This document shows positions 41,987-61,269 of a DNA stretch of 64,000 bases, piece by piece. Positions within the stretch are counted from its first letter, which is position 1. Every line of letters begins with the position of its first letter. Source of the stretch: a virus. Below the pieces are notes generated by a model, which worked only from the letters and a program-made list of their open reading frames with translations, made no database searches and had not been told where the DNA came from. The translations under genes were made by a program, and so were the position numbers. Location: positions 292,866 through 356,865 of the IMG/VR virus record IMGVR_UViG_3300027759_004177. The stretch is one strand, 5' to 3'.

Positions 41987-42908
41987 AATATTTTTGAAAA
42001 CCTTCTTCTATGTCCACACGTCCACGATAGCCAAAGTCTTGGCCGGCACGTATGGTGCTTAGTGTGCCACGACTGGGGAATCTTGGATTGGCATCGGCCA
42101 TTTTAATACGTCCGCCACCTGCAATCGCGACAGCCAGTTCTGCAGCTTCTAGTAGACTGCGGCCACAACTGCGTGTGATGTTATATGTACGTTTGGAACT
42201 GTTAAAACTAAGTGAGGCTTTGACAATACCATCAACGGCATCATCAACATAGGTAAAGTCTAAGTGTTCTTCTGCCCCGCATACCACAAGTTCTTGGTCT
42301 AGCATGGCACGGGTTAGGAACTTGCTGACCACGCGATCTTCAACATCTCGTGGTCCATACACCGCACTTGGACGTAACACGACATAATCAATTCCGGCCC
42401 GTTCACATAGATCACGTGTTAGGCTTTCACCGGCATACTTTAAAATACCATAGATACCTTTTGGATTACAACGCATATCTTCGTAGCCGTACAGCTCAAA
42501 GTCTCCGTAGACCATGCTAGAACTGATGTAAACAAATCTACGAACATCGAAGCGTTCGCTACAGCGTAATAAGTTAATCAATCCATTGGTCAATACTGTG
42601 GCGCCTTCTTCGGGATTTTCATCTACGGCTTTGGCCCTGGGAAATGCTGCACAATGTATCACAACATCAGGTCTACATTCATCAAACACATTTAGTAAGG
42701 CATTGTAGTTTTTAATGTCTACATGATGTATATCAGTCGTAGCAATACGTTCTAAACGTTCTTGATGTAGCTTGGACATTTCAGCATCAGGTACAATACC
42801 GTAGTTGGTAAAGTTATCTAGGATACAAACATTGTGTCCTTGTGCTTCAAGTTCAGCTACCACATTGTGCCCAATAAAACCTACACCACCGGTGACTAAT
42901 ATGTTCAT
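41961..42908 (-). CDS. NAD-dependent sugar epimerase/dehydratase
   Basis: 315 residues of the extended short-chain dehydrogenase type. 'TGGVGFIGHNV' is the Rossmann GxxGxxG motif, 'YISSSMVYG' gives the catalytic Ser region, and 'YGILKYAGE' the YxxxK pair; 'LRPSAVYGPRD' is typical of GalE/dTDP-glucose dehydratase relatives. The substrate is probably a nucleotide sugar. It overlaps thyA by 4 bases and the aminotransferase by 26. Whether it is an epimerase or a dehydratase cannot be told from sequence alone. Confidence 0.85.
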   Translation of the reverse strand: MNILVTGGVGFIGHNVVAELEAQGHNVCILDNFTNYGIVPDAEMSKLHQERLERIATTDIHHVDIKNYNALLNVFDECRPDVVIHCAAFPRAKAVDENPEEGATVLTNGLINLLRCSERFDVRRFVYISSSMVYGDFELYGYEDMRCNPKGIYGILKYAGESLTRDLCERAGIDYVVLRPSAVYGPRDVEDRVVSKFLTRAMLDQELVVCGAEEHLDFTYVDDAVDGIVKASLSFNSSKRTYNITRSCGRSLLEAAELAVAIAGGGRIKMADANPRFPSRGTLSTIRAGQDFGYRGRVDIEEGFQKYYEWLQRTI

Positions 42909-43816
42909 ACAGCCATCTCTGCTCGAATTGATGCATGGCTAGTGTAGCCTTCTAATGTGATATCTGACATGGTAAAATCAAAGATACTTTTAACATCGGG
43001 GTTGAGTAGAAGTTGTGGGGCAGGTAATGGTTCACGATCCAATTGTTCTCGAACCTGCTCTACATGATTCAAGTAGATGTGTGCATCTCCGAGAACATGA
43101 ACAAACTCCCCAACCGATAGGTCGCACACCTGAGCAATCAAGTGAGTTAAAAGAGAGTAGCTGGCAATGTTAAAAGGAACTCCTAGAAACATGTCACAAC
43201 TTCTTTGGTACATTTGGCAACTCAGTTTACGATCTCGACTTACATAAAACTGAGCAAACATGTGGCAAGGTGGTAGAGCCATTTGATCTAGTTCGCCAGG
43301 ATTCCACGCTGTTAATACATGTCTACGTCCATATGGATCTTGTTTAAGACTTTTAATTAGATCTTGTAATTGATCAACTTCTTTGATATGCAATAGGCCG
43401 CCACGATTAAAAATGTTACCAAAATCATCTTTAAATGTTTCGGCTTTGTGTTCTACAGGAGTGCGCCAACGGCGCCACTGTACTCCGTACACACGACCCA
43501 AGTCACCTTCAAATTTAGCCTTAGACTTCCAATAAGGAGCCAGAGCATTAGGAGTCCATATGGTTACTGTGCCATCGCTAGTACCATGTGTAATTTCTGC
43601 CAGTCTGCGTTCACTGCCTGAACCTTCAATCATCCATAGCAGTTCGCCTACACAGGCTCGCCAGGCAAGTTTTTTAGTAGTTACTGCCGGGAATGAAACA
43701 GATAAGTCATAGCGTTGTTGCAAACCAAACAGGCCGATAGTGCCCACGCCGGTTCGATCATCTCTTTGTTCGCCCTGCTCAAGAACTTGTCTAAGTGCGT
43801 CTAGGTATTGTTTCAT
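42905..43816 (-). CDS. thyA: Thymidylate synthase
   Basis: 303 residues, folate-dependent ThyA type. 'LPPCHMFAQFYV' contains the nucleophilic Cys184; 'DRTGVGTIGLFG' binds the dUMP phosphate with 'YQRSCDMFLGVPFNIASYSL', and 'LGDAHIYLNHVEQ' is also typical. It makes dTMP from dUMP and methylene-tetrahydrofolate, whose dihydrofolate product is recycled by DHFR two genes upstream. An SGNH gene lies between them. The stop and start overlaps on both sides (4 bases each) indicate an operon. Confidence 0.96.
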   Translation of the reverse strand: MKQYLDALRQVLEQGEQRDDRTGVGTIGLFGLQQRYDLSVSFPAVTTKKLAWRACVGELLWMIEGSGSERRLAEITHGTSDGTVTIWTPNALAPYWKSKAKFEGDLGRVYGVQWRRWRTPVEHKAETFKDDFGNIFNRGGLLHIKEVDQLQDLIKSLKQDPYGRRHVLTAWNPGELDQMALPPCHMFAQFYVSRDRKLSCQMYQRSCDMFLGVPFNIASYSLLTHLIAQVCDLSVGEFVHVLGDAHIYLNHVEQVREQLDREPLPAPQLLLNPDVKSIFDFTMSDITLEGYTSHASIRAEMAV

Positions 43817-46966: not shown

Positions 46967-47148
46967 TATTCTACTCCAAAATGTTTTAAAATATTGTCAC
47001 TGCTCTGATAAGGTTCGGCGGTGTGTGCAATATCAGCACACTCCCGCACAATGGCCTGGGCAAACTCTTCAACCTTGAGTCGCCATATGGGGCTATGAGC
47101 AATGGTAAAGTGAGTGTCCTCGGCTATGCGTTGGATATTTTCGTTCAT
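46966..47148 (-). CDS. Small hypothetical protein downstream of the VWA gene
   Basis: 60 residues from the ATG at 47148, which overlaps the VWA-gene stop as ATGA; an upstream in-frame start inside the VWA gene is unlikely. Sequence such as 'FTIAHSPIWRLKVEEFAQAI' followed by 'VRECADIAH' suggests a short helical protein. Coupled to both neighbours (ATGA and TAATG). Function unknown, perhaps an accessory to the VWA protein. Confidence 0.6.
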   Translation of the reverse strand: MNENIQRIAEDTHFTIAHSPIWRLKVEEFAQAIVRECADIAHTAEPYQSSDNILKHFGVE

Positions 47149-48389
47149 TTCACAGCATCTTCGTAGTGGGCATACACACCAAACTCGGGCTGGGCTTCTT
47201 TGTTGCCTTTGATAATCCACACAGTATCGCAATACTGCTCGACCTGATCAGGGCTCCAACCAAAGAAACAAAAGTCAGTAAACATGATCAATTTCTTGGG
47301 TTCGATGTTGTTTTCTTCCAACCAAGTCCAAACACAATGCGGATCTGTACCACCGCCACCACCCGGTACAAAGCTCTCAATGTCAGCGATATTGTCCGAT
47401 GTGAATATTTCGTGATTGTGTACTTGGGTATCCCAACCCAACACATGGATACGATATTCGTCGTAACTTTCCATGATACCTTTGATTTCACTCAAGAAAA
47501 TCTTGAGATCTGGGTCAGTGATACTACCTGAAGTATCAATACCAATCACAACATCAATCTGGTTGCCGGGCAACATGCCGGGCATGACAGCATCCATATG
47601 CCACCCTCTGCGGCTGGGACGTTGCCAAGTAAAATCACTCTTGATAGAACTTTCAACCTGCTGATTGATCAACTCACGCCAGTTAATCACAGGTTCGGTT
47701 AGGTCCTTGATCATGCGTTTGACACCACCGGGCAAATTACCTGCACCCGAAGCATTGGCGGCATTTAGTACTGCATCTTTGATTTCGTCGCGAATAGCCT
47801 TCTTTTCTTCTTCGCTCAGGCGTGGACGACCGTTGCCTGGCTTGTCGCCATCTTCGCCTTCACCACCTTCTCCGTCCAAATGTTCGTCTAGTAGACGCTT
47901 CATCAATTCATCAATGTTGATTTTGTCGGCATTGGCATACAAGTCATCATACACTTCTTCGGCACTCATACCTTTGTACTTCGAGTCGTACAGGGCAACG
48001 GGAATCTTGTCGCCAATACGTTGTTCTACCAGGTCCCAGTTTACGCAATAGTCATCGGCAATGTTCCACAGTTTTGGATCTCTGTTGCCACGACGTCCCA
48101 TATGGTCATAAACCGCATGAAGCACTTCATGTCCGACCAAGAATTCCAATTGCTTTAGGGGAAGGTTATTGACAAACTCTGAATTATAGTAAAATTTACG
48201 GCCGTCTGTGGCGGCAGTAGGACACCATTCATCTGCGTTGATAAGTGTTAGGCGGGTAGCAAGGTTGCCAAAGAATGGAGCACGGAGCAAAAGACCAATA
48301 CGTGCGGTAACCAGTTTTTCGCGGGCACTTGCATCCGTCTTGGGATCTGTTACTGTTACCGCTTTACTTTTTTCTGCTAGTGTAGTCAT
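47145..48389 (-). CDS. VWA-domain metallopeptidase-like protein
   Basis: 414 residues from the ATG at 48389 (GGAGCG eight bases upstream). The N-terminal domain carries an HExxH-type zinc motif 'GHEVLHAVYDHMGRR' (residues 86-100), like the DUF2201 metallopeptidase-like domain. An acidic linker ('EGGEGEDGDKPG') leads to a C-terminal von Willebrand A domain with the MIDAS motif 'IGIDTSGSITD' near residue 280 and 'IMFTDFCFFG'. This architecture partners MoxR-type AAA ATPases, and such an ATPase lies two genes upstream. It has its own sigma70-like promoter at 48414. Probably part of a chaperone-like remodelling pair. Confidence 0.82.
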   Translation of the reverse strand: MTTLAEKSKAVTVTDPKTDASAREKLVTARIGLLLRAPFFGNLATRLTLINADEWCPTAATDGRKFYYNSEFVNNLPLKQLEFLVGHEVLHAVYDHMGRRGNRDPKLWNIADDYCVNWDLVEQRIGDKIPVALYDSKYKGMSAEEVYDDLYANADKINIDELMKRLLDEHLDGEGGEGEDGDKPGNGRPRLSEEEKKAIRDEIKDAVLNAANASGAGNLPGGVKRMIKDLTEPVINWRELINQQVESSIKSDFTWQRPSRRGWHMDAVMPGMLPGNQIDVVIGIDTSGSITDPDLKIFLSEIKGIMESYDEYRIHVLGWDTQVHNHEIFTSDNIADIESFVPGGGGGTDPHCVWTWLEENNIEPKKLIMFTDFCFFGWSPDQVEQYCDTVWIIKGNKEAQPEFGVYAHYEDAVK

Positions 48390-48413
48390 TCTGTTCGCTC
48401 CTGTATTATATAT

Positions 48414-48442
48414 ATTATACATTTAATTGATTTTTTGGTCAA
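48414..48442 (-). promoter_or_regulatory. Sigma70-like promoter for the VWA operon
   Basis: On the minus strand, TTGACC (48437-48442), a 17-base spacer and TATAAT (48414-48419). The -10 is consensus and the -35 matches five of six. It lies about 25 bases before the VWA start and overlaps the 3' end of the upstream gene. Confidence 0.65.
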
Positions 48443-48734
48443 CCTTTTGGTTAGCACGGTTTTTTCGTTGATTAAACACATCTTCCATGCCCTGTACACT
48501 AGAACCAGGCTTGATCACTTGTGGTGCTGTGGGCTGGCTGACTGCGACTGTGGCACGTGGTTCAGGTGCTGTGGGACGGCAAATATCATTGCCGCTGATG
48601 CTTCGGCTGATCTTGCAGTCTTGATCGCGAACAGCACTGATACCATGGTCTGCTAGACCTTTACCGGTGGTTTCTACCGAAGCCACACTAGCTAGACCGA
48701 CTATGAGCAAAGGACCTATGACCATTGTGGCCAC
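48423..48734 (-). CDS. Small exported or membrane-anchored hypothetical protein
   Basis: 103 residues. The first 20 residues ('MATMVIGPLLIVGLASVASV') form a hydrophobic segment, a signal peptide or membrane anchor. The following 'QDCKISRSISGNDIC' contains a spaced Cys pair of the kind seen in small exported proteobacterial proteins (from memory). The tail is Pro/Thr-rich then basic. It overlaps the upstream gene by 19 bases. A host-derived origin is possible but untested. Confidence 0.6.
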   Translation of the reverse strand: MATMVIGPLLIVGLASVASVETTGKGLADHGISAVRDQDCKISRSISGNDICRPTAPEPRATVAVSQPTAPQVIKPGSSVQGMEDVFNQRKNRANQKVDQKIN

Positions 48735-48913
48735 CTTAACATAAAATAAGTACGGTCTGCTGGGTCGGGGATATATAACATCATTTGTCCTAGTGCTATC
48801 TTATTGTGGCCTAACCAAGTACCAATGGATTCTTTGTTATCTAACCACCATTTACGATTCATGACTACACAAATCTCTGGAGTATCTAGATCTGGACAAA
48901 AGTCATAGTTCAT
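48716..48913 (-). CDS. Small hypothetical protein
   Basis: 65 residues ('MNYDFCPDLDTPEICVVMNR', 'WWLDNKESIGTWLGHN', 'MMLYIPDPADRTYFMLRWP'). It reads as a compact folded protein rich in Trp and Asp, so it is probably real although no Shine-Dalgarno precedes the ATG. It overlaps the exported protein gene and lies 55 bases downstream of the MoxR gene. Function unknown. Confidence 0.55.
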   Translation of the reverse strand: MNYDFCPDLDTPEICVVMNRKWWLDNKESIGTWLGHNKIALGQMMLYIPDPADRTYFMLRWPQWS

Positions 48914-48968
48914 AAGAATAAGGAGGACTTACAGCGTGTGCCTGCCCCCTGCCTGTGACAGCAACCTT

Positions 48969-50075
48969 TTACTTACCGCCTGCCGCGATAATGTACTTGC
49001 CGTACCGCTTGTGGAACTCATCAAAGTTCTTGAGCTTGCCTGGTACCAGGGGTAAGTTGTAAGTGGTCAACGCAACTCTAGCACCCATAACAACCAATTC
49101 AGTGGTAAAGTTATCCATCATAAAGCGGAAGAAGTTATCGGCCATACCGTGCCATTGGCTGATCTTTTCCTTGCCTAGTTTGGCATAAGCATCTTGCAAT
49201 TCATAGCACATGGACACAGTCAAGGAGTACATGGCACTGACTTCTTTGACATCTAAAGTCTTGACCTTACCTGCCAAGATTTCGCTTGGGTTAGGCATCT
49301 TGCTGGCAACCTTGCGGTGTGCCATAAACTTAACTGCCAAGCCATCACCGATAGTACCAGCAATCAAGTCCGACAATTCTGCATCTGTGGCATCTTCGTC
49401 ATGTAAGAATTCACTTACAAAGTGCCATGAACGTGGTGTTGCAAAGGCACGGCTGGCTGAGCGTGGGTTAAAATCCATCAAGTCTTGCTTGGCAAAACCA
49501 ATGTAACCTACCACGTCCTTGTGCTCACGATTCTGCACAGCCCACTCGTTCCATGAGTCGTAATCAGCACGTACTTCCAAATGTACGAAACGATTTGCCA
49601 GGGGCATTGGCATACGGAAACTAACACCTTTGTCGCTTTCACGATTACCCGCGGCCACAATTACCACATTCTTGGGCAGGTGATACTTGCCTAGTCTGCG
49701 ATTGAGAATCAACTGATAGGCCGCGGCCTGTACTGCCGGGGCCGCCACATTCATCTCGTCTAAGAACAAGGTCACAACAGGGTATTCTGCGGCCAACTCT
49801 GGTGTTGGTAAGTCCACTGGCTCGGCCCAGTCCATTTTGCCCAACTCTTTGTTATAAAACGGAATACCACGCAGATCTGTGGGCTCCATTTGGCCTAGAC
49901 GTAAGTCAATGGTATAACCGCCTAATTCTTGGGTAAGACCGGCTACCAATTCACTTTTACCTACTCCGGGAGGACCCCAAATAAAAACAGGGCGTTGGAC
50001 TTTGAATGCACGAAGCAAGCGGCTACGGCATTCATTGGGTGTTACTGTACGGCTTTCACTAATAGTTGTACTCAT
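48969..50075 (-). CDS. MoxR-type AAA+ ATPase
   Basis: 368 residues from the ATG at 50075 with AGGAG six bases upstream (a GTG one codon earlier is less well placed). Walker A 'IWGPPGVGKSELVAGL', Walker B 'VTLFLDEMN', sensor 1 'VIVAAGNRESD' and 'MPLANRFVHLEV' are present. MoxR-family ATPases act with VWA-domain proteins to remodel or insert cofactors into client complexes. The VWA/metallopeptidase gene lies two genes downstream. The client is unknown; a phage assembly or host protein is equally possible. Confidence 0.85.
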   Translation of the reverse strand: MSTTISESRTVTPNECRSRLLRAFKVQRPVFIWGPPGVGKSELVAGLTQELGGYTIDLRLGQMEPTDLRGIPFYNKELGKMDWAEPVDLPTPELAAEYPVVTLFLDEMNVAAPAVQAAAYQLILNRRLGKYHLPKNVVIVAAGNRESDKGVSFRMPMPLANRFVHLEVRADYDSWNEWAVQNREHKDVVGYIGFAKQDLMDFNPRSASRAFATPRSWHFVSEFLHDEDATDAELSDLIAGTIGDGLAVKFMAHRKVASKMPNPSEILAGKVKTLDVKEVSAMYSLTVSMCYELQDAYAKLGKEKISQWHGMADNFFRFMMDNFTTELVVMGARVALTTYNLPLVPGKLKNFDEFHKRYGKYIIAAGGK

Positions 50076-50119
50076 CACAGGCTCCTAAAAATTACTACAA
50101 AATTAACTACTATAGAACT

Positions 50120-50767: not shown

Positions 50768-51049
50768 TTATCTGGAAAGATTCATTACACGACCTTGGAA
50801 CTCGTTGAAGCTGACTCTCCAAGGCACAAATATTTCATGACCCACACGACTGTCAGGACCGGATTGATTAGTATCGGTGTCGGCACCAAAATGATCACGG
50901 GTAACACGGATCTTGTAGGCCTGATAACCTTGCTCGGTATTGTGAGCATCAATCACTTGACCTTCGATAAAACAATCATCACGTCCCGCCATGGGTTTGA
51001 AATCATAGCTACGGATGATATCACCATCTACTATTGTTAGTCCAACCAT
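50768..51049 (-). CDS. Small beta-rich hypothetical protein
   Basis: 93 residues from the ATG at 51049 with AAGGAGC upstream; an earlier in-frame start at 51088 would precede the promoter -10 box and is rejected. Sequence is beta-rich ('GLTIVDGDIIRSYDF', 'KIRVTRDHFG', 'EIFVPWRVSFNEFQGRVMNL'). It is a monocistronic unit with its own promoter (51080) and terminator (50671). Function unknown. Confidence 0.65.
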   Translation of the reverse strand: MVGLTIVDGDIIRSYDFKPMAGRDDCFIEGQVIDAHNTEQGYQAYKIRVTRDHFGADTDTNQSGPDSRVGHEIFVPWRVSFNEFQGRVMNLSR

Positions 51050-51079
51050 TTTCTGCTCCTTATTAATCACTATACATAC

Positions 51080-51124: not shown

Positions 51125-51150
51125 AAAAAACCCCCTAAAAACAGGGGGTT
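51125..51150 (-). terminator. Factor-independent terminator ending the ABC/GNAT operon
   Basis: AACCCCCT (51129-51136) pairs with AGGGGGTT (51143-51150) around a six-base loop. On the minus strand the stem is followed by TTTTTT running into the stem base. It lies 27 bases after the stop of the ABC ATPase-GNAT gene and closes that operon. Confidence 0.85.
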
Positions 51151-51176
51151 ATGGGTGTTGTTTTTAGGCAACAGAG

Positions 51177-52229
51177 TTACTTTTTACCTATATACTCGTG
51201 ACTGTAACAAACCCTATAAGCATCTCGAACAGTGGTTGTACCGCCGTAACCTGCCATTTTTCTAGCAGTACCATCCTTGTTCAAGTAACTACCTACCCTG
51301 GATTTTTTATTCATTGACGTAGGGCGCCATAGTTCGGATTTTTCACGATGCTCGCCGAAACTAGGGTGTGCTGTTTTACTAAAGTATCTTAGACCATGGC
51401 TAACATAGATTTCGGCAATGGCATCACTAAATCGTGTACCTATGCCCATGCCTTGAAACTCGGGTAAGATCACAGTACGATGGCCACGCCAGTAACTGTG
51501 AATATCTCTATTAGTTGAATGTATAGCAGCATGAAACCCAATGGGTTTATCACCTAAGAGTAAGACATAGTAATGAGCACTTTTACTAATAGCAGTATCT
51601 AAATAGTGATACTTACTGAAATATCTCCAATAGTCGACACTTGAGCTTTTGATGGTGAGTGCAAGTTTTGGTCTTGTCCCCAATCGAAGAAGTGACCTCC
51701 GATTTTCTAAGACACAGAGATCTGTGTCATAAACGTATTCAGGATCTAACCATTCTACTATGTCTCTATGGCAACTTGCAATATATAGTGGATCTGTTTT
51801 ACCCTGCCGATTGTAGAACTTGCGAATACTTAGGGCAAGACTTTTAGCAGTATCGCGATCAACAACTGACGTAAACTCGTCAACTGTGCCGAGTCCTTGA
51901 TCTAAACTAATGGCCATTTCAAAGCGATGATACTCGCCATTGCTTAAGGTATTGGGTGGTCGGAACCAAGTAGGAATACTACGCAGTCCGCAGGCAAGTA
52001 AGAGTTCTTCGCCACGTTCCGGAGTAGAGAAGTTTTCTATTGTAGTGCGAGCGTTATCTACTACAGGCTGACGTAGTTCACCTAGGCTACGCAGGATAGT
52101 GCTTTTACCACTACCGCTTGTGCCTACAATTAATACAATACCATCAGTTGGAAGCTCGGGGATAGTTACGCCGCTTTCCTTATAGTCTGTAATATCGTAC
52201 TTCTTTTTAATTTCTTCTAAGTAACTCAT
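51177..52229 (-). CDS. ABC-type ATPase fused to a GNAT acetyltransferase (COG2401-like)
   Basis: 350 residues from the ATG at 52229, which overlaps the previous stop as ATGA. The N-terminal half is an ABC ATPase: Walker A 'GTSGSGKST' (36-44), signature 'LSNGE' (95-99), Walker B-like 'GTVDEFTS' (114-121) and switch His154 ('ASCHRD'). The C-terminal half is a GNAT fold with acetyl-CoA motif 'PEFQGMGIGTRFSDA' (256-270). ABC-GNAT fusions are known as COG2401 but their biochemistry is poorly known; Mom, the phage Mu DNA-modifying enzyme, also has a GNAT-like fold. No transmembrane segment, so it is not a transporter. Last gene of a four-gene operon. Confidence 0.8.
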   Translation of the reverse strand: MSYLEEIKKKYDITDYKESGVTIPELPTDGIVLIVGTSGSGKSTILRSLGELRQPVVDNARTTIENFSTPERGEELLLACGLRSIPTWFRPPNTLSNGEYHRFEMAISLDQGLGTVDEFTSVVDRDTAKSLALSIRKFYNRQGKTDPLYIASCHRDIVEWLDPEYVYDTDLCVLENRRSLLRLGTRPKLALTIKSSSVDYWRYFSKYHYLDTAISKSAHYYVLLLGDKPIGFHAAIHSTNRDIHSYWRGHRTVILPEFQGMGIGTRFSDAIAEIYVSHGLRYFSKTAHPSFGEHREKSELWRPTSMNKKSRVGSYLNKDGTARKMAGYGGTTTVRDAYRVCYSHEYIGKK

Positions 52230-53017
52230 ATGCAAACCTTATAATTTCCTTGTTTAGACCAATCAGATATGCTAGTTACATTGGTGGGTATAGCAGTACT
52301 AGGCCAAACAAACAAGTAACCGTTACCGAGATCAAATCTCTTTAGAAAATTTATACTAGAACCTTCTCCGTATGGAGCTGAGGAGTATAATACTTTCCCG
52401 TCAGCATCTAACGCTTCATAACCGTTGTTAATAGGCACAGGATTTTTTTTAGTTTTTCTAGTCTGGTGAATTTTATAAGAACTTGCGTTGGGTGTTGCAA
52501 AATTTTGTTCTTCTAAGTAAATTGACTTGTGCCCTAAGTCCTCTCCGTAAATTAAAAGAATACTAGTTAGTACTGTACAATTGGCGGCCGTTATTGTCTT
52601 ATTGGCATAATCTCGATACTCCTGAATCGCCAACGGCATAAGAATTCCAGGATCTCCTTTCCATCCTTGCATGTCAATTGGTGAACGACGAGAAGGCAAC
52701 AATACAGAATTTGGTCTACGCACCCATAAAGAATCTTTGATAATTTCAAAGTATTGGCCACCGCTTTTGAGCATATGAGGTTTTGGTTTGGTATTGTAAA
52801 ACTTAATAGCATCGTTACTCTTAACATCAAATGCTCGATGATCGACCTTTACGTCAACAATGGTACCTGATCCGCCAACTCTTACTGCATTGGCATAAAA
52901 AGGTTTTAGGCCAAGAGCAATAACCTTTTCTGCTGTGGTGCTGTTAGGGACATTGATGCTCCAGGCCGTTTGAGCCCATGCAGCAATGTTAGTGGCAATT
53001 TGTTCTGTTAGTATCAT
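52226..53017 (-). CDS. Possible PD-(D/E)xK-type nuclease or unknown protein
   Basis: 263 residues. 'GGSGTIVDVKVDHRAFDVKS' (residues 48-67) resembles a restriction-endonuclease-like core, with D55 or D59 followed by D64-x-K66. The remainder, including 'TRKTKKNPVPINNGYEALDA', is unassigned. It is coupled by ATGA on both sides to the HNH-like and ABC-GNAT genes. The nuclease assignment is tentative; it could instead be a DNA-binding or substrate-recognition partner. Confidence 0.4.
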   Translation of the reverse strand: MILTEQIATNIAAWAQTAWSINVPNSTTAEKVIALGLKPFYANAVRVGGSGTIVDVKVDHRAFDVKSNDAIKFYNTKPKPHMLKSGGQYFEIIKDSLWVRRPNSVLLPSRRSPIDMQGWKGDPGILMPLAIQEYRDYANKTITAANCTVLTSILLIYGEDLGHKSIYLEEQNFATPNASSYKIHQTRKTKKNPVPINNGYEALDADGKVLYSSAPYGEGSSINFLKRFDLGNGYLFVWPSTAIPTNVTSISDWSKQGNYKVCI

Positions 53018-53571
53018 ATAATTAAATGTTTAAAGTAATTATAATGCTTTTCCAAGGTCCATGTCAATGGATCAATTGCCGTTCCATCGTGTGTTTGGTA
53101 AGTGGCAGAGAACACATTGGTATAGCGTTCAAATGGCAACCACATGTTGGGAGTTTTAGAGGCCCAACCTGCATCTTTGAGGGCCCGGTGTTTGGCACGA
53201 CTCAATCTTACTGTGGGCGGATTCAGAGCTTGCTCTACGGAGATACGGCCAGCCAACAGCAAGTCACGGATACGACTGGCTGGAATCAAATGTTCAAAGT
53301 CACAATCTTCGTCTGCACCAATTTCGTGATAGTGTGCTTTCATGCCATCACGTTGTTGGATACAGTATTCGTGATAACGACGTAGGTAGTAATCAATGTC
53401 ATTGCGGATTTCACGCAACAACTGTTGATCATTTACTACTTCACTATAATCAACTACCAAGCGATCCAAATTCTTTCGACAGTAAGCGGCCACGGTTCGA
53501 TAAGTATCTGCGGTGCGTGTGGTCTTACCGTAGTTGGGGGCAATAAAAGTGTCTAGGGATTCTTTTAACAT
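53014..53571 (-). CDS. HNH-like nuclease candidate
   Basis: 185 residues. 'CDFEHLIPASRIRDLLLAGR' (E93, H94), then 'ALNPPTVRLSRAKHRALKD' (N117, H128) follow the (D/E)H...N...H order of HNH/His-Me finger nucleases, but the zinc-binding cysteine pairs of many HNH enzymes are absent. Other helices ('RNDIDYYLRRYHEYC') surround the core. Start overlaps the ParB-like gene's stop as TAATG and its stop overlaps the next start as ATGA. A DNA-cleaving role in the operon is plausible, not proven. Confidence 0.5.
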   Translation of the reverse strand: MLKESLDTFIAPNYGKTTRTADTYRTVAAYCRKNLDRLVVDYSEVVNDQQLLREIRNDIDYYLRRYHEYCIQQRDGMKAHYHEIGADEDCDFEHLIPASRIRDLLLAGRISVEQALNPPTVRLSRAKHRALKDAGWASKTPNMWLPFERYTNVFSATYQTHDGTAIDPLTWTLEKHYNYFKHLII

Positions 53572-54617
53572 TATGACGCCTCTGGAAACAAGCCAGGAAC
53601 AAAATTACCAGCTTCAATGCCTACTTTACTACCTTCTCCGTGATATGGTAAGTTTAATGCACCACCATTATGAATATGCAATTCACGCATGAAGTTGGCC
53701 ATGGCCATCGGAGCAGTCCAACCTGCACCTGGGTGAGTATGGTCCCATTGCAGTTTAGCTTTGGCATGAATAGTGGCTGAATTTCTATGAGTTTTCTTCA
53801 AGCTGTCTAACAAGGTTTTCATCCAATCTGCAGGCAATTTGATGTTGGGATTGGTACCAGCTAGACGTTGTAGTTCATGTAAGCCGATATAAACACCTTG
53901 ATCAATTTCTTCTCCAATTGGGAAAGTTTCCTTGATTGCCGACAGGATATTGTGTAGCACTCGACCAGACTCATCCAACTCAATGCCCTTTTGTGCATAT
54001 TTAAAGTGACTGAAGAAGTAATCGTTGTCGCCACGCAGATTATCGCTGGCACGGCTACCTTTGTCTTGCAGGTCAATGCCTAACTTATCAAACTGATCCT
54101 GCATGGTTCTAGCGTGTACTACCTTAATATCACGGCTACCATTTTTGTAGCGTACAAGAGCATTGCGATGTAAGTCACCTGGGGTAAGACGTTTAACACC
54201 TGTGTCGTTTAACATTTCAAAAGCATAACTAGCAAAGTTCTTGTCATCTGTAACAACCACCGCACAAGGAATTTCTGTAAAACCTAAGATAGCGGCACTG
54301 ATAGTACGATGCTGGCCGTCGTAAGTATCAATACGATCTGTATCTATTAATTGGCAAGCCGACACAGGTGAACAGATGCGACTGTCCCATTTCTTCATGA
54401 TATTGATAATATGTTTGTGTAGCACATCACGTTGGACTTCGTAGTCGATCCAAAGATCGGCAATGGCGACCATGGTGCTTTTGGGGAACGAATGACCGAT
54501 TCTGGCCGCAACTCGCCAGGCAGTTAATTCTCTATCAGTTACGTTGTAATGAGCTTTGAGTTGACGTTCAACTTCTTGAGCCACGTCAGTGAGTTTGCGT
54601 GTGAGACGCTTTGACAT
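53571..54617 (-). CDS. ParB/sulfiredoxin-fold DGQHR-type protein
   Basis: 348 residues with AAGGAG before the ATG. The N-terminal domain contains 'ADLWIDYEVQRDVLHKHI' and 'IDTYDGQHRTISAAILGF' (DGQHR, residues 100-104), the signature of ParB-like and DndB-like domains, which bind or hydrolyse nucleotides in DNA-modification and partition systems. The C-terminal part is helical and unassigned. First gene of the operon with the ABC-GNAT fusion, behind a perfect consensus promoter. A role in DNA modification or restriction is inferred from family and neighbours. Confidence 0.75.
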   Translation of the reverse strand: MSKRLTRKLTDVAQEVERQLKAHYNVTDRELTAWRVAARIGHSFPKSTMVAIADLWIDYEVQRDVLHKHIINIMKKWDSRICSPVSACQLIDTDRIDTYDGQHRTISAAILGFTEIPCAVVVTDDKNFASYAFEMLNDTGVKRLTPGDLHRNALVRYKNGSRDIKVVHARTMQDQFDKLGIDLQDKGSRASDNLRGDNDYFFSHFKYAQKGIELDESGRVLHNILSAIKETFPIGEEIDQGVYIGLHELQRLAGTNPNIKLPADWMKTLLDSLKKTHRNSATIHAKAKLQWDHTHPGAGWTAPMAMANFMRELHIHNGGALNLPYHGEGSKVGIEAGNFVPGLFPEAS

Positions 54618-54683
54618 TGTAATTCTCCTTCGTTGCCCGACACAATGCGGGATTGGTTAATAAAACTGCTACTTCTAATTACT

Positions 54684-54712
54684 ATTATACGCTCTTTTTC
54701 TGCGGTTGTCAA
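54684..54712 (-). promoter_or_regulatory. Perfect consensus sigma70 promoter of the ParB-ABC/GNAT operon
   Basis: On the minus strand, TTGACA (54707-54712), a 17-base spacer and TATAAT (54684-54689): both hexamers are consensus at optimal spacing. About 65 bases separate it from the ATG at 54617. It should be recognised by host RNA polymerase from the start of infection. Confidence 0.85.
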
Positions 54713-54720
54713 CCATCTAA

Positions 54721-54736
54721 GTTAGTGATCACTAAC
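54721..54736. promoter_or_regulatory. 16-bp perfect palindrome next to the -35 box
   Basis: GTTAGTGATCACTAAC is perfectly self-complementary and lies eight bases upstream of the -35 of the ParB operon, over the stop codon of the upstream gene. It has no T tract, so it is more like an operator than a terminator. The binding protein is unknown. Confidence 0.45.
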
Positions 54737-55118
54737 CTTGTGATTCTATATTATCTAAATATGATGCTAAGTCATTGCCGTGTAAGGTCAGCATCATGGC
54801 TTCTTCCTCTTCAAACACTATAATTTTTTGACGTTTGAGCAGGTAGTACATGCTTTTAAACTGTCGTTCTAATTGCAACAGATGATGATTGGTCAGTTCT
54901 TCAGGCAAAGCAAATTCATAACTTTGTAGTTTGAGCACAGCCTTGACAAATTGTAGTCCTTGAAGACTCAACCTTAGGCTGGTGTCGTCTGTGGGATTCT
55001 TCCACCAACGCAGTTGTAGGTCGGTAGTTTGGCCAATTGGAAACTCAGCCTGTTCTACAAATATTTTTGTGAGTTGACGTTGAGTGTAACGCTTATGGGA
55101 AGATTTTGTCGCCGGCAC
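54732..55118 (-). CDS. Hypothetical protein
   Basis: About 128 residues if the GTG at 55118 is used (26-base overlap with the upstream gene); an ATG at 55193 would give 153 residues but a 101-base overlap. The sequence has a basic N-terminus ('KSSHKRYTQRQLTKIFVE'), a beta segment ('TTDLQLRWWKNP') and a helical C-terminus with an acidic run ('FEEEEAMMLTLHG'). No family recognised. Its stop lies within the palindrome at 54721. Confidence 0.55.
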   Translation of the reverse strand: MPATKSSHKRYTQRQLTKIFVEQAEFPIGQTTDLQLRWWKNPTDDTSLRLSLQGLQFVKAVLKLQSYEFALPEELTNHHLLQLERQFKSMYYLLKRQKIIVFEEEEAMMLTLHGNDLASYLDNIESQG

Positions 55119-60408: not shown

Positions 60409-61269
60409 TTATTTGCCCCAGCCGTTGCCCCAGAGATCCACATGCAAGCGTGGGCTGTAGTTGAATCCCAGTTTGCAACAGATGTTGGCAATGTTTAGTT
60501 TGTTTGATTCGTATGGATCAACTACACCGCCCTGTGGCATCAAGTATACCACGCCTTTGAAACCGTCATGTCTAAATGCATCCACAGCACGTATGGCTTC
60601 TGTAACGTGATCTTCAGTTTCAACCACAAACTTGAGATAAGTGTGTCCGTAAGTTTGATAGATATTGACAATCTTGGGTTTGATAGCATCATCCCACGAC
60701 TCGCCTGACGCACTTAGTTTGGCACTGACACTGAATGTGACTTCACGTCCGGCTTTGTCACTGGCCCAGTCAATCAAGTAATCGCGGAAGTCTTCGTGTA
60801 GTTCTTGAGTACCGTTGGTTTCAAATGTGATATTCTTCAAGTCTGCCATGCGGTGATGACTCAACAGTTCTGCATAAGCACGTTGCCAACCTAGCAAAGG
60901 TTCACCGCCTGTAATAACCAAGTGAACATCATTGCCATTGTTTTGCATCCACATGTTATTAGGTGTCAGCGCCAACATCTTTTCCACAAGTTCTTCTGTG
61001 GTCAGTGTGTGACTCAGGTGTTTGTAGGCTGGATGCCACGATGCATAACTGTCACATCCTGTTTCTACCAATGGAAGATCGTTGAATGTTTTGTACAGTT
61101 CTACCTTTTTGGCCACGTCATCTGCACCTGTTGATTTTTCGCCAGGCTTGCAACCAAAACCTGAACAGGTAAAGTTACATCCGTATGTTCTTAAGAATAC
61201 GCTAGGTACTCCAACAAAGCGACCTTCGCCTTGTAAGCTATAAAATATTTCGCTGACTTTAATCTTCAT
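60409..61269 (-). CDS. queE: 7-carboxy-7-deazaguanine synthase QueE (radical SAM)
   Basis: 286 residues. 'EIFYSLQGEGRFVGVPSVFL' is the classic QueE opening; 'LRTYGCNFTCSGFGC' carries the cluster cysteines, and 'VITGGEPLLGWQ' the SAM motif. The cysteine spacing is unusual: C31 and C35 are CxxxC, but the third candidate is C40 (after four residues) or C72 ('TGCDSYASWHP'), not the normal CxxC. QueE converts carboxytetrahydropterin, the QueD product, to 7-carboxy-7-deazaguanine, the precursor of preQ0, queuosine and deazaguanine DNA modifications. QueD lies two genes upstream. QueC is not in the window. Confidence 0.92.
   Translation of the reverse strand: MKIKVSEIFYSLQGEGRFVGVPSVFLRTYGCNFTCSGFGCKPGEKSTGADDVAKKVELYKTFNDLPLVETGCDSYASWHPAYKHLSHTLTTEELVEKMLALTPNNMWMQNNGNDVHLVITGGEPLLGWQRAYAELLSHHRMADLKNITFETNGTQELHEDFRDYLIDWASDKAGREVTFSVSAKLSASGESWDDAIKPKIVNIYQTYGHTYLKFVVETEDHVTEAIRAVDAFRHDGFKGVVYLMPQGGVVDPYESNKLNIANICCKLGFNYSPRLHVDLWGNGWGK

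Follow-up and report, generated by a model that had tools for sequence, protein, structure and literature searches.

The window analysed here, a single stretch of 64 kb, forms the last part of a 356,865-base virus record; judged by its size, the record is a jumbo-phage fragment, carrying tail and baseplate genes, and belongs to a giant lake virus of bacteria. Within the window, four genes on the minus strand, which we call g1 to g4, form an operon at 51129–54712 in the order g1-g2-g3-g4. They are joined by overlaps of 1–4 bp, with TAATG at the g1/g2 junction and ATGA at both the g2/g3 and g3/g4 junctions. The operon and its surroundings comprise the following features.

54732–55085, minus strand: UP, a conserved upstream border gene of 117 aa, beyond the operon
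54684–54712, minus strand: operon promoter of the sigma-70 type, a perfect TTGACA-17-TATAAT match kept in relatives
53571–54617, minus strand: g1, ParB-like, 348 aa, with VQRD ... YDGQHR motifs
53014–53571, minus strand: g2, candidate HNH-like (His-Me finger) nuclease, 185 aa, with invariant residues
52226–53017, minus strand: g3, rare accessory gene and possible PD-(D/E)xK nuclease, 263 aa, with D55 ... D64-x-K66
51177–52229, minus strand: g4, ABC ATPase–GNAT acyltransferase fusion, 350 aa, the constant element, assigned by profile and motifs
51129–51150, minus strand: intrinsic terminator at the operon end, with a 9-bp stem and a T tract
50768–51061, minus strand: DOWN, a conserved downstream border gene, beyond the operon
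52230–54740, no strand: exchangeable segment, replaced in the close relative L036

The initial annotation had described an overlapping four-gene operon bounded by a perfect promoter and a terminator, and all four reading frames, the three junctions and both transcription signals were confirmed. The length of g4 is counted from an ATG, 6 bases downstream of an in-frame TTG. Searching both strands of the 64-kb window revealed two perfect promoters, against 0.07 expected per 64 kb under a first-order Markov model. The one ahead of g1 is retained in 42 of 45 relatives, allowing up to two mismatches, even though its spacer has diverged. The second (TTGACA-18-TATAAT, 53038–53067) lies within the 3′-terminal part of g2, shortly before g3, and does not figure in the initial annotation. 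It is probably a by-product of the coding sequence, because it is present in only 15 of 134 relatives; an internal promoter for g3-g4 was thus ruled out as a conserved feature. The suggestion that the operon is portable and transcriptionally independent of its neighbours is supported.

Several other genes in the window deserve mention. A QueE-like radical SAM gene (60409–61269; PHROG E = 1e-53) occurs in a 357-kb record in which QueC was not found, and may reflect another use of deazaguanine chemistry. A thymidylate synthase-family gene (E = 2e-106) lies at 42908–43813, and the interval 47145–50078 holds, on the same strand, an ATPase gene (48969–50078, phrog_1297) and a nearby gene matching phrog_1314, a profile named HNH endonuclease (E = 4e-109).

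The g4 product joins an ABC ATPase to a GNAT domain. Its match to the PHROG profile phrog_11143 (E = 1.5e-79) spans residues 3–349 and therefore both domains, in agreement with the original ABC–GNAT call, and the acyltransferase part also matches Pfam Acetyltransf_1 (E = 1e-5). Among 23 diverse family members, the Walker A, signature, Walker B, D-loop and H-switch motifs of the ATPase and the Q-x-x-G-x-G-type acyl-CoA loop of the GNAT domain are invariant or nearly so, as seen in the alignment at LSxGE, DEFTSxVDR, H154 and QGxGxG. In phages of Streptococcus, Lactococcus (P335), Oenococcus and Enterococcus, the family is divided between two neighbouring ORFs, supporting the view that ABC and GNAT make up one functional unit. 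At one locus, in a Porphyromonas phage (L218), the ABC–GNAT gene overlaps one whose annotation is formyltransferase, which may hint at the acyl donor. The prediction that phage ABC–GNAT proteins are DNA base acyltransferases reportedly goes back to Iyer et al. in 2013. The g4 protein shares 38% identity over 93% with QAX98348.1 (match H1), which is cited as a predicted DNA base acyl-modifier by Iyer et al. 2021 (PMC7824862, in the portion of that source available). Both the family and its predicted DNA acylation are thus already published there, and DNA is the predicted substrate of g4.

The ParB-like character of g1, proposed initially, was borne out by a PHROG ParB-like match (E = 2e-5) and by profile comparison, which found g1 homologous to c78 (98%) and c226 (97%), two ParB-like families that occupy its place beside g4. 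The best match among solved structures was SbnI, a weak one (E = 0.1), and Pfam returned no match for g1, DUF262 included. We predict that g1 provides the NTP switch or DNA recognition part of a nuclease pair.

The HNH-like reading of g2 stood at the level of motif and predicted secondary structure but was not confirmed by fold. F92, P97, P119 and T120 are invariant; across 37 sequences E93, H94 and N117 are invariant as well and position 128 is always H, D or N, an acidic residue having apparently been swapped between positions 91 and 128. With a strand predicted at 90–94, another at 120–124 and a helix at 125–133, g2 conforms to the His-Me finger pattern of an acidic-His pair on a strand, a loop Asn and a metal-ligand position in the next helix. 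The best HNH-type match in Pfam was HNH_4, under the cut-off (E = 0.099), and DUF1524 was not found; sequence comparison with solved structures gave nothing meaningful, and no database match for g2 was convincing. Foldseek comparison of a good model (pLDDT 94.5) with PDB and BFVD gave nothing significant, so that the assignment remains at motif level: g2 fits a His-Me (HNH) nuclease and is a candidate for one. Neither g1 nor g2 had a match in the named phages of our collection.

In g3, D55 ... D64-x-K66 forms a D-(8)-DxK pattern that is invariant in four sequences (g3 and three relatives). The proposed PD-(D/E)xK nuclease keeps this conserved pattern in its favour but gained no structural backing, and the call derives from the pattern by itself, since the g3 model is poor (pLDDT 63) and its fold search gave no match. 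We regard g3 as a rare accessory gene, possibly encoding such a nuclease.

Comparison of loci indicated that the four genes do not travel as a set. The full order g1-g2-g3-g4 was found in the window alone among the loci compared; two loci (L011 and L012) have g2-g3-g4 without g1, another (L093) has g1-g2-g3 followed by an SPPY methylase, and a fourth (L079) retains g1-g2 and lacks g3-g4. The single four-gene system put forward in the initial annotation, with the families co-occurring in the same order elsewhere, was accordingly abandoned: g1-g2 occur mostly without g4, and g3 is rare. In the close relative L036, which shares 96% and 91% identity with the window in its two flanks, a nuclease-like and methylase-like pair stands in place of g1-g2-g3, and the boundaries of the swap fall just past the UP gene and exactly at the g4 start codon.

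The same replacement is seen more widely. Of 45 non-redundant relatives, 38 have restriction-modification-like genes (ParB-like, HNH-like, nuclease-like, methylase or helicase) among the three genes that precede g4. Because the cassette labels were seeded from genes beside g4, this figure characterises the neighbourhood and does not measure enrichment over a genome-wide background. This is in keeping with the earlier theme of DNA modification and cleavage. At least ten unrelated kinds of cassette precede g4. They include ParB plus HNH; a PD-(D/E)xK-like nuclease with either an N4 methylase (Pfam 6e-39) or a D12 methylase (Pfam 5e-29); a nuclease-like protein with an SPPY methylase; a ResIII helicase (Pfam 2e-11) with an Eco57I methylase; and a 1160-aa protein with an Eco57I methylase (2e-14). 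The nuclease labels reflect D/ExK-type motifs as read, Pfam having given no match. These cassettes precede g4 in more than one genomic neighbourhood and not in the UP–DOWN interval alone, and three loci (L024, L042 and L047) have g4 with no recognisable nuclease cassette beside it.

Identity between g4 sequences was 0.785 within and 0.796 between cassette types, and 1668 of 2000 shuffles reached the observed difference. The g4 sequence does not track cassette type, which suggests that g4 acts in the same way whichever cassette it adjoins; a shared DNA substrate would predict this. Several g4-adjacent cassettes carry their own methylase, so that g4 would not be needed for self-protection in them; the idea that g4 simply substitutes for a methylase is weakened, as many g4 cassettes already have one, although within g1-g2 loci g4 and a methylase are never found together.

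Two further observations concern genes directly upstream of g4. At seven loci (L001, L010, L014, L022, L036, L044 and L058) these encode short proteins resembling methylases (c109, and the C-terminal part of c227), in which the SAM-binding half, or something like it, is present and the catalytic NPPY/F motif is absent; they are possibly DNA- or cofactor-binding partners of g4. At another (L053:563-1567) the gene encodes a UvdE-type UV endonuclease (Pfam 1e-39).

Beyond these relatives, we collected 80 bacterial and archaeal genome loci with g4-like genes, many of them prophages, judging by terminase- and portal-like neighbours. In 40 of 62 genome cases the g4-like gene is immediately preceded by a distinct ParB-like gene of about 190 aa, often with the two overlapping by 22 bases. 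A common family for g1 and this prophage partner was unsupported (profile-comparison probability 5%). Across these genome contigs (L220–L299), the approximately 190-aa protein has a conserved C-terminal tail and terminase-like genes often follow; the loci include prophages of planctomycetes, Endozoicomonas and others, some with an ASCH-like gene nearby. Among 76 distant phage loci, only a single instance of the modelled ParB-like types was found upstream of g4, and the commonest g4 neighbours were replication genes (polymerase, primase and helicase). The prophage and distant-phage neighbourhoods together indicate that g4 is independent of g1-g2 and steadily associated with DNA-handling genes.

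Guided by these observations, we tentatively propose, with a confidence somewhat short of an even call, that the operon is a phage-borne restriction-modification-like locus in which an exchangeable DNA-cutting half is combined with a constant, ATP-dependent DNA-acylating enzyme. The exchangeable half would be the cassette of ParB-like g1 and HNH-like g2, here extended by the accessory g3. In this cassette g1 would most likely sense or bind DNA through a ParB-type nucleotide switch and g2 would cut it. The g4 protein would most likely clamp on DNA in an ATP-dependent manner and then acylate a base. Phage DNA acylated in this way would be spared by the neighbouring nuclease, and unmodified DNA of the host or of rival phages would be attacked. 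Counting against this reading are the g1-g2 pairs that have no g4, the g4-adjacent cassettes that bring a methylase of their own, the g4 genes with no recognisable cassette and the negative fold searches for g2 and g3. The wider form of this proposal, in which one ATP-dependent DNA-acylating ABC–GNAT enzyme serves many unrelated, exchangeable nuclease cassettes, so that the weapon changes and the shield stays, we consider doubtful.

The main competitor is that g1-g2 is a self-sufficient pair of the Type IV (GmrSD-like) kind acting against modified foreign DNA, with g4 as a hot-spot neighbour and the two halves uncoupled; g4 itself would then possibly be a DNA modifier or an anti-restriction enzyme. 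We judge this possible, on the unlikely side. Among 72 non-redundant g2 loci on viral contigs, a ParB-like gene lies upstream of g2 in 64. Among the three genes after g2, g4 is present in 21 of the 72 loci (15 of them with ParB-like upstream); 10 more have a methylase but no g4, and the other 41 have neither. Of the 64 g1-g2 pairs, 39 have neither g4 nor a methylase in the next three genes, from which it follows that the nuclease pair does not need g4, and this frequency keeps the Type IV-like alternative strong. The combination of a ParB-type domain with an HNH nuclease is also the architecture of GmrSD (PMC12839542), and g4 is found in distant phages with no nuclease and in prophages beside another kind of ParB-like gene. 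Against uncoupled halves, however, g4 trails restriction-modification-like cassettes in more than one neighbourhood, translational coupling joins the window genes in a single operon that has a single terminator, and neither g1 to DUF262 nor g2 to DUF1524 shows a sequence match. In favour of the restriction-modification-like reading, a methylase follows g1-g2 in 10 loci, never jointly with g4, which follows in 15 (P = 0.054).

Two other accounts of g4 seem improbable to a similar degree. In the first, g4 works as a guard like PrrC, RloC or PARIS: its ABC ATPase senses interference with the cassette, and translation is then poisoned through its GNAT domain. A constant ABC ATPase does adjoin many different restriction-modification-like cassettes, and ABC ATPases guard restriction systems elsewhere (PrrC and PARIS). 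GNAT toxins that acetylate aminoacyl-tRNA provide a precedent for the effector (PMC9177977). Yet most distant phages have a standalone g4, often near replication genes, and prophages pair it with a ParB-like gene; covariation of g4 with cassette type, which a sensor in contact with cassette proteins might show, is not observed; no antitoxin gene was seen; and the effector would be a GNAT, whereas those of PrrC, RloC and PARIS are an anticodon nuclease or Toprim. In the second, g4 helps in host takeover by acetylating a protein, not DNA, much as the phiKMV-like phage protein Rac acts on RNA polymerase. Protein-acting phage GNATs are indeed known (PMC7552054 and PMC7824862, in the parts of these sources available), but the fusion to a complete ABC ATPase and the linkage to restriction-modification-like and replication genes argue against this account.

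Least probable, by a little, is that g1-g2 is a mobile or homing-type element hitch-hiking beside g4, as the pair is found in many different neighbourhoods and small HNH- and GIY-YIG-like genes are often inserted between its members, but the pair has retained tight coupling and a strong promoter of its own, a ParB-like partner is not something that homing genes require, and the homing-like family c22 is a separate small gene, HNH by Pfam. The insertions themselves, genes of 120–190 aa present in many relatives (for example L018, L020, L122, L143 and L195), belong to at least five unrelated families, several of them HNH- or GIY-YIG-like, and mark the g1/g2 junction as a hot spot for homing-type endonucleases.

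The proposed restriction-modification-like locus can be compared with several known systems. The g1-g2 cassette resembles Type IV GmrSD in having a ParB-type domain with a DGQ(H/Q)R-like motif and an HNH nuclease, but g1 and g2 are separate genes, match neither Pfam DUF262 nor DUF1524 and often lie beside a modification-type enzyme. The slot that it fills recalls Type II and Type III/ISP-like restriction-modification, since relatives place nuclease-like proteins with N4, D12 or Eco57I methylases or ResIII helicases there; in contrast, the window cassette has no methylase and its sole modification candidate is the acyltransferase. A cognate methylase of the Type II sort was found neither in the operon nor, as N6_N4 or D12 methylase, in the 357-kb record. 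Mom of phage Mu is likewise a member of the GNAT superfamily with a proposed role in phage DNA protection, but it has no ABC domain, and profile comparison of the g4 family with a single Mom sequence detected no kinship (hhalign probability 0.05). A mechanistic analogue is offered by the tRNA cytidine acetyltransferases TmcA and NAT10, which join an ATPase to a GNAT domain and acetylate a nucleobase with ATP and acetyl-CoA; they differ from g4 in their helicase-type ATPase and RNA substrate. Compared with the published phage ABC–GNAT predicted DNA base acyltransferases (phrog_11143; PMC7824862), g4 belongs to the same family and has the same fused domains, but an exchangeable ParB-like/HNH-like cassette stands in front of it, a coupling absent from the available part of that source. 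The MetaGPA study contained nothing bearing on the locus. Within the available portions of the literature, a constant ABC–GNAT gene with freely exchanged restriction-modification-like cassettes, together with its coupling to a ParB-HNH pair, appears to be new.

If the wider proposal of a universal modifier were true, the locus would show restriction built in plug-in fashion around acylated DNA bases, and its ParB-HNH nuclease pair would be a new one. The near-identical g4 genes beside interchangeable nucleases form a natural set for a direct test. Should the restriction-modification-like reading be right, the long-predicted ABC–GNAT family would gain a concrete biological role, and phages would run restriction systems of their own in which a common self-mark is combined with cutters that can be replaced. 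The same reading would suggest an ATP-using chemistry for acylating DNA and would make ParB-HNH pairs a place to look for new DNA-cutting enzymes.
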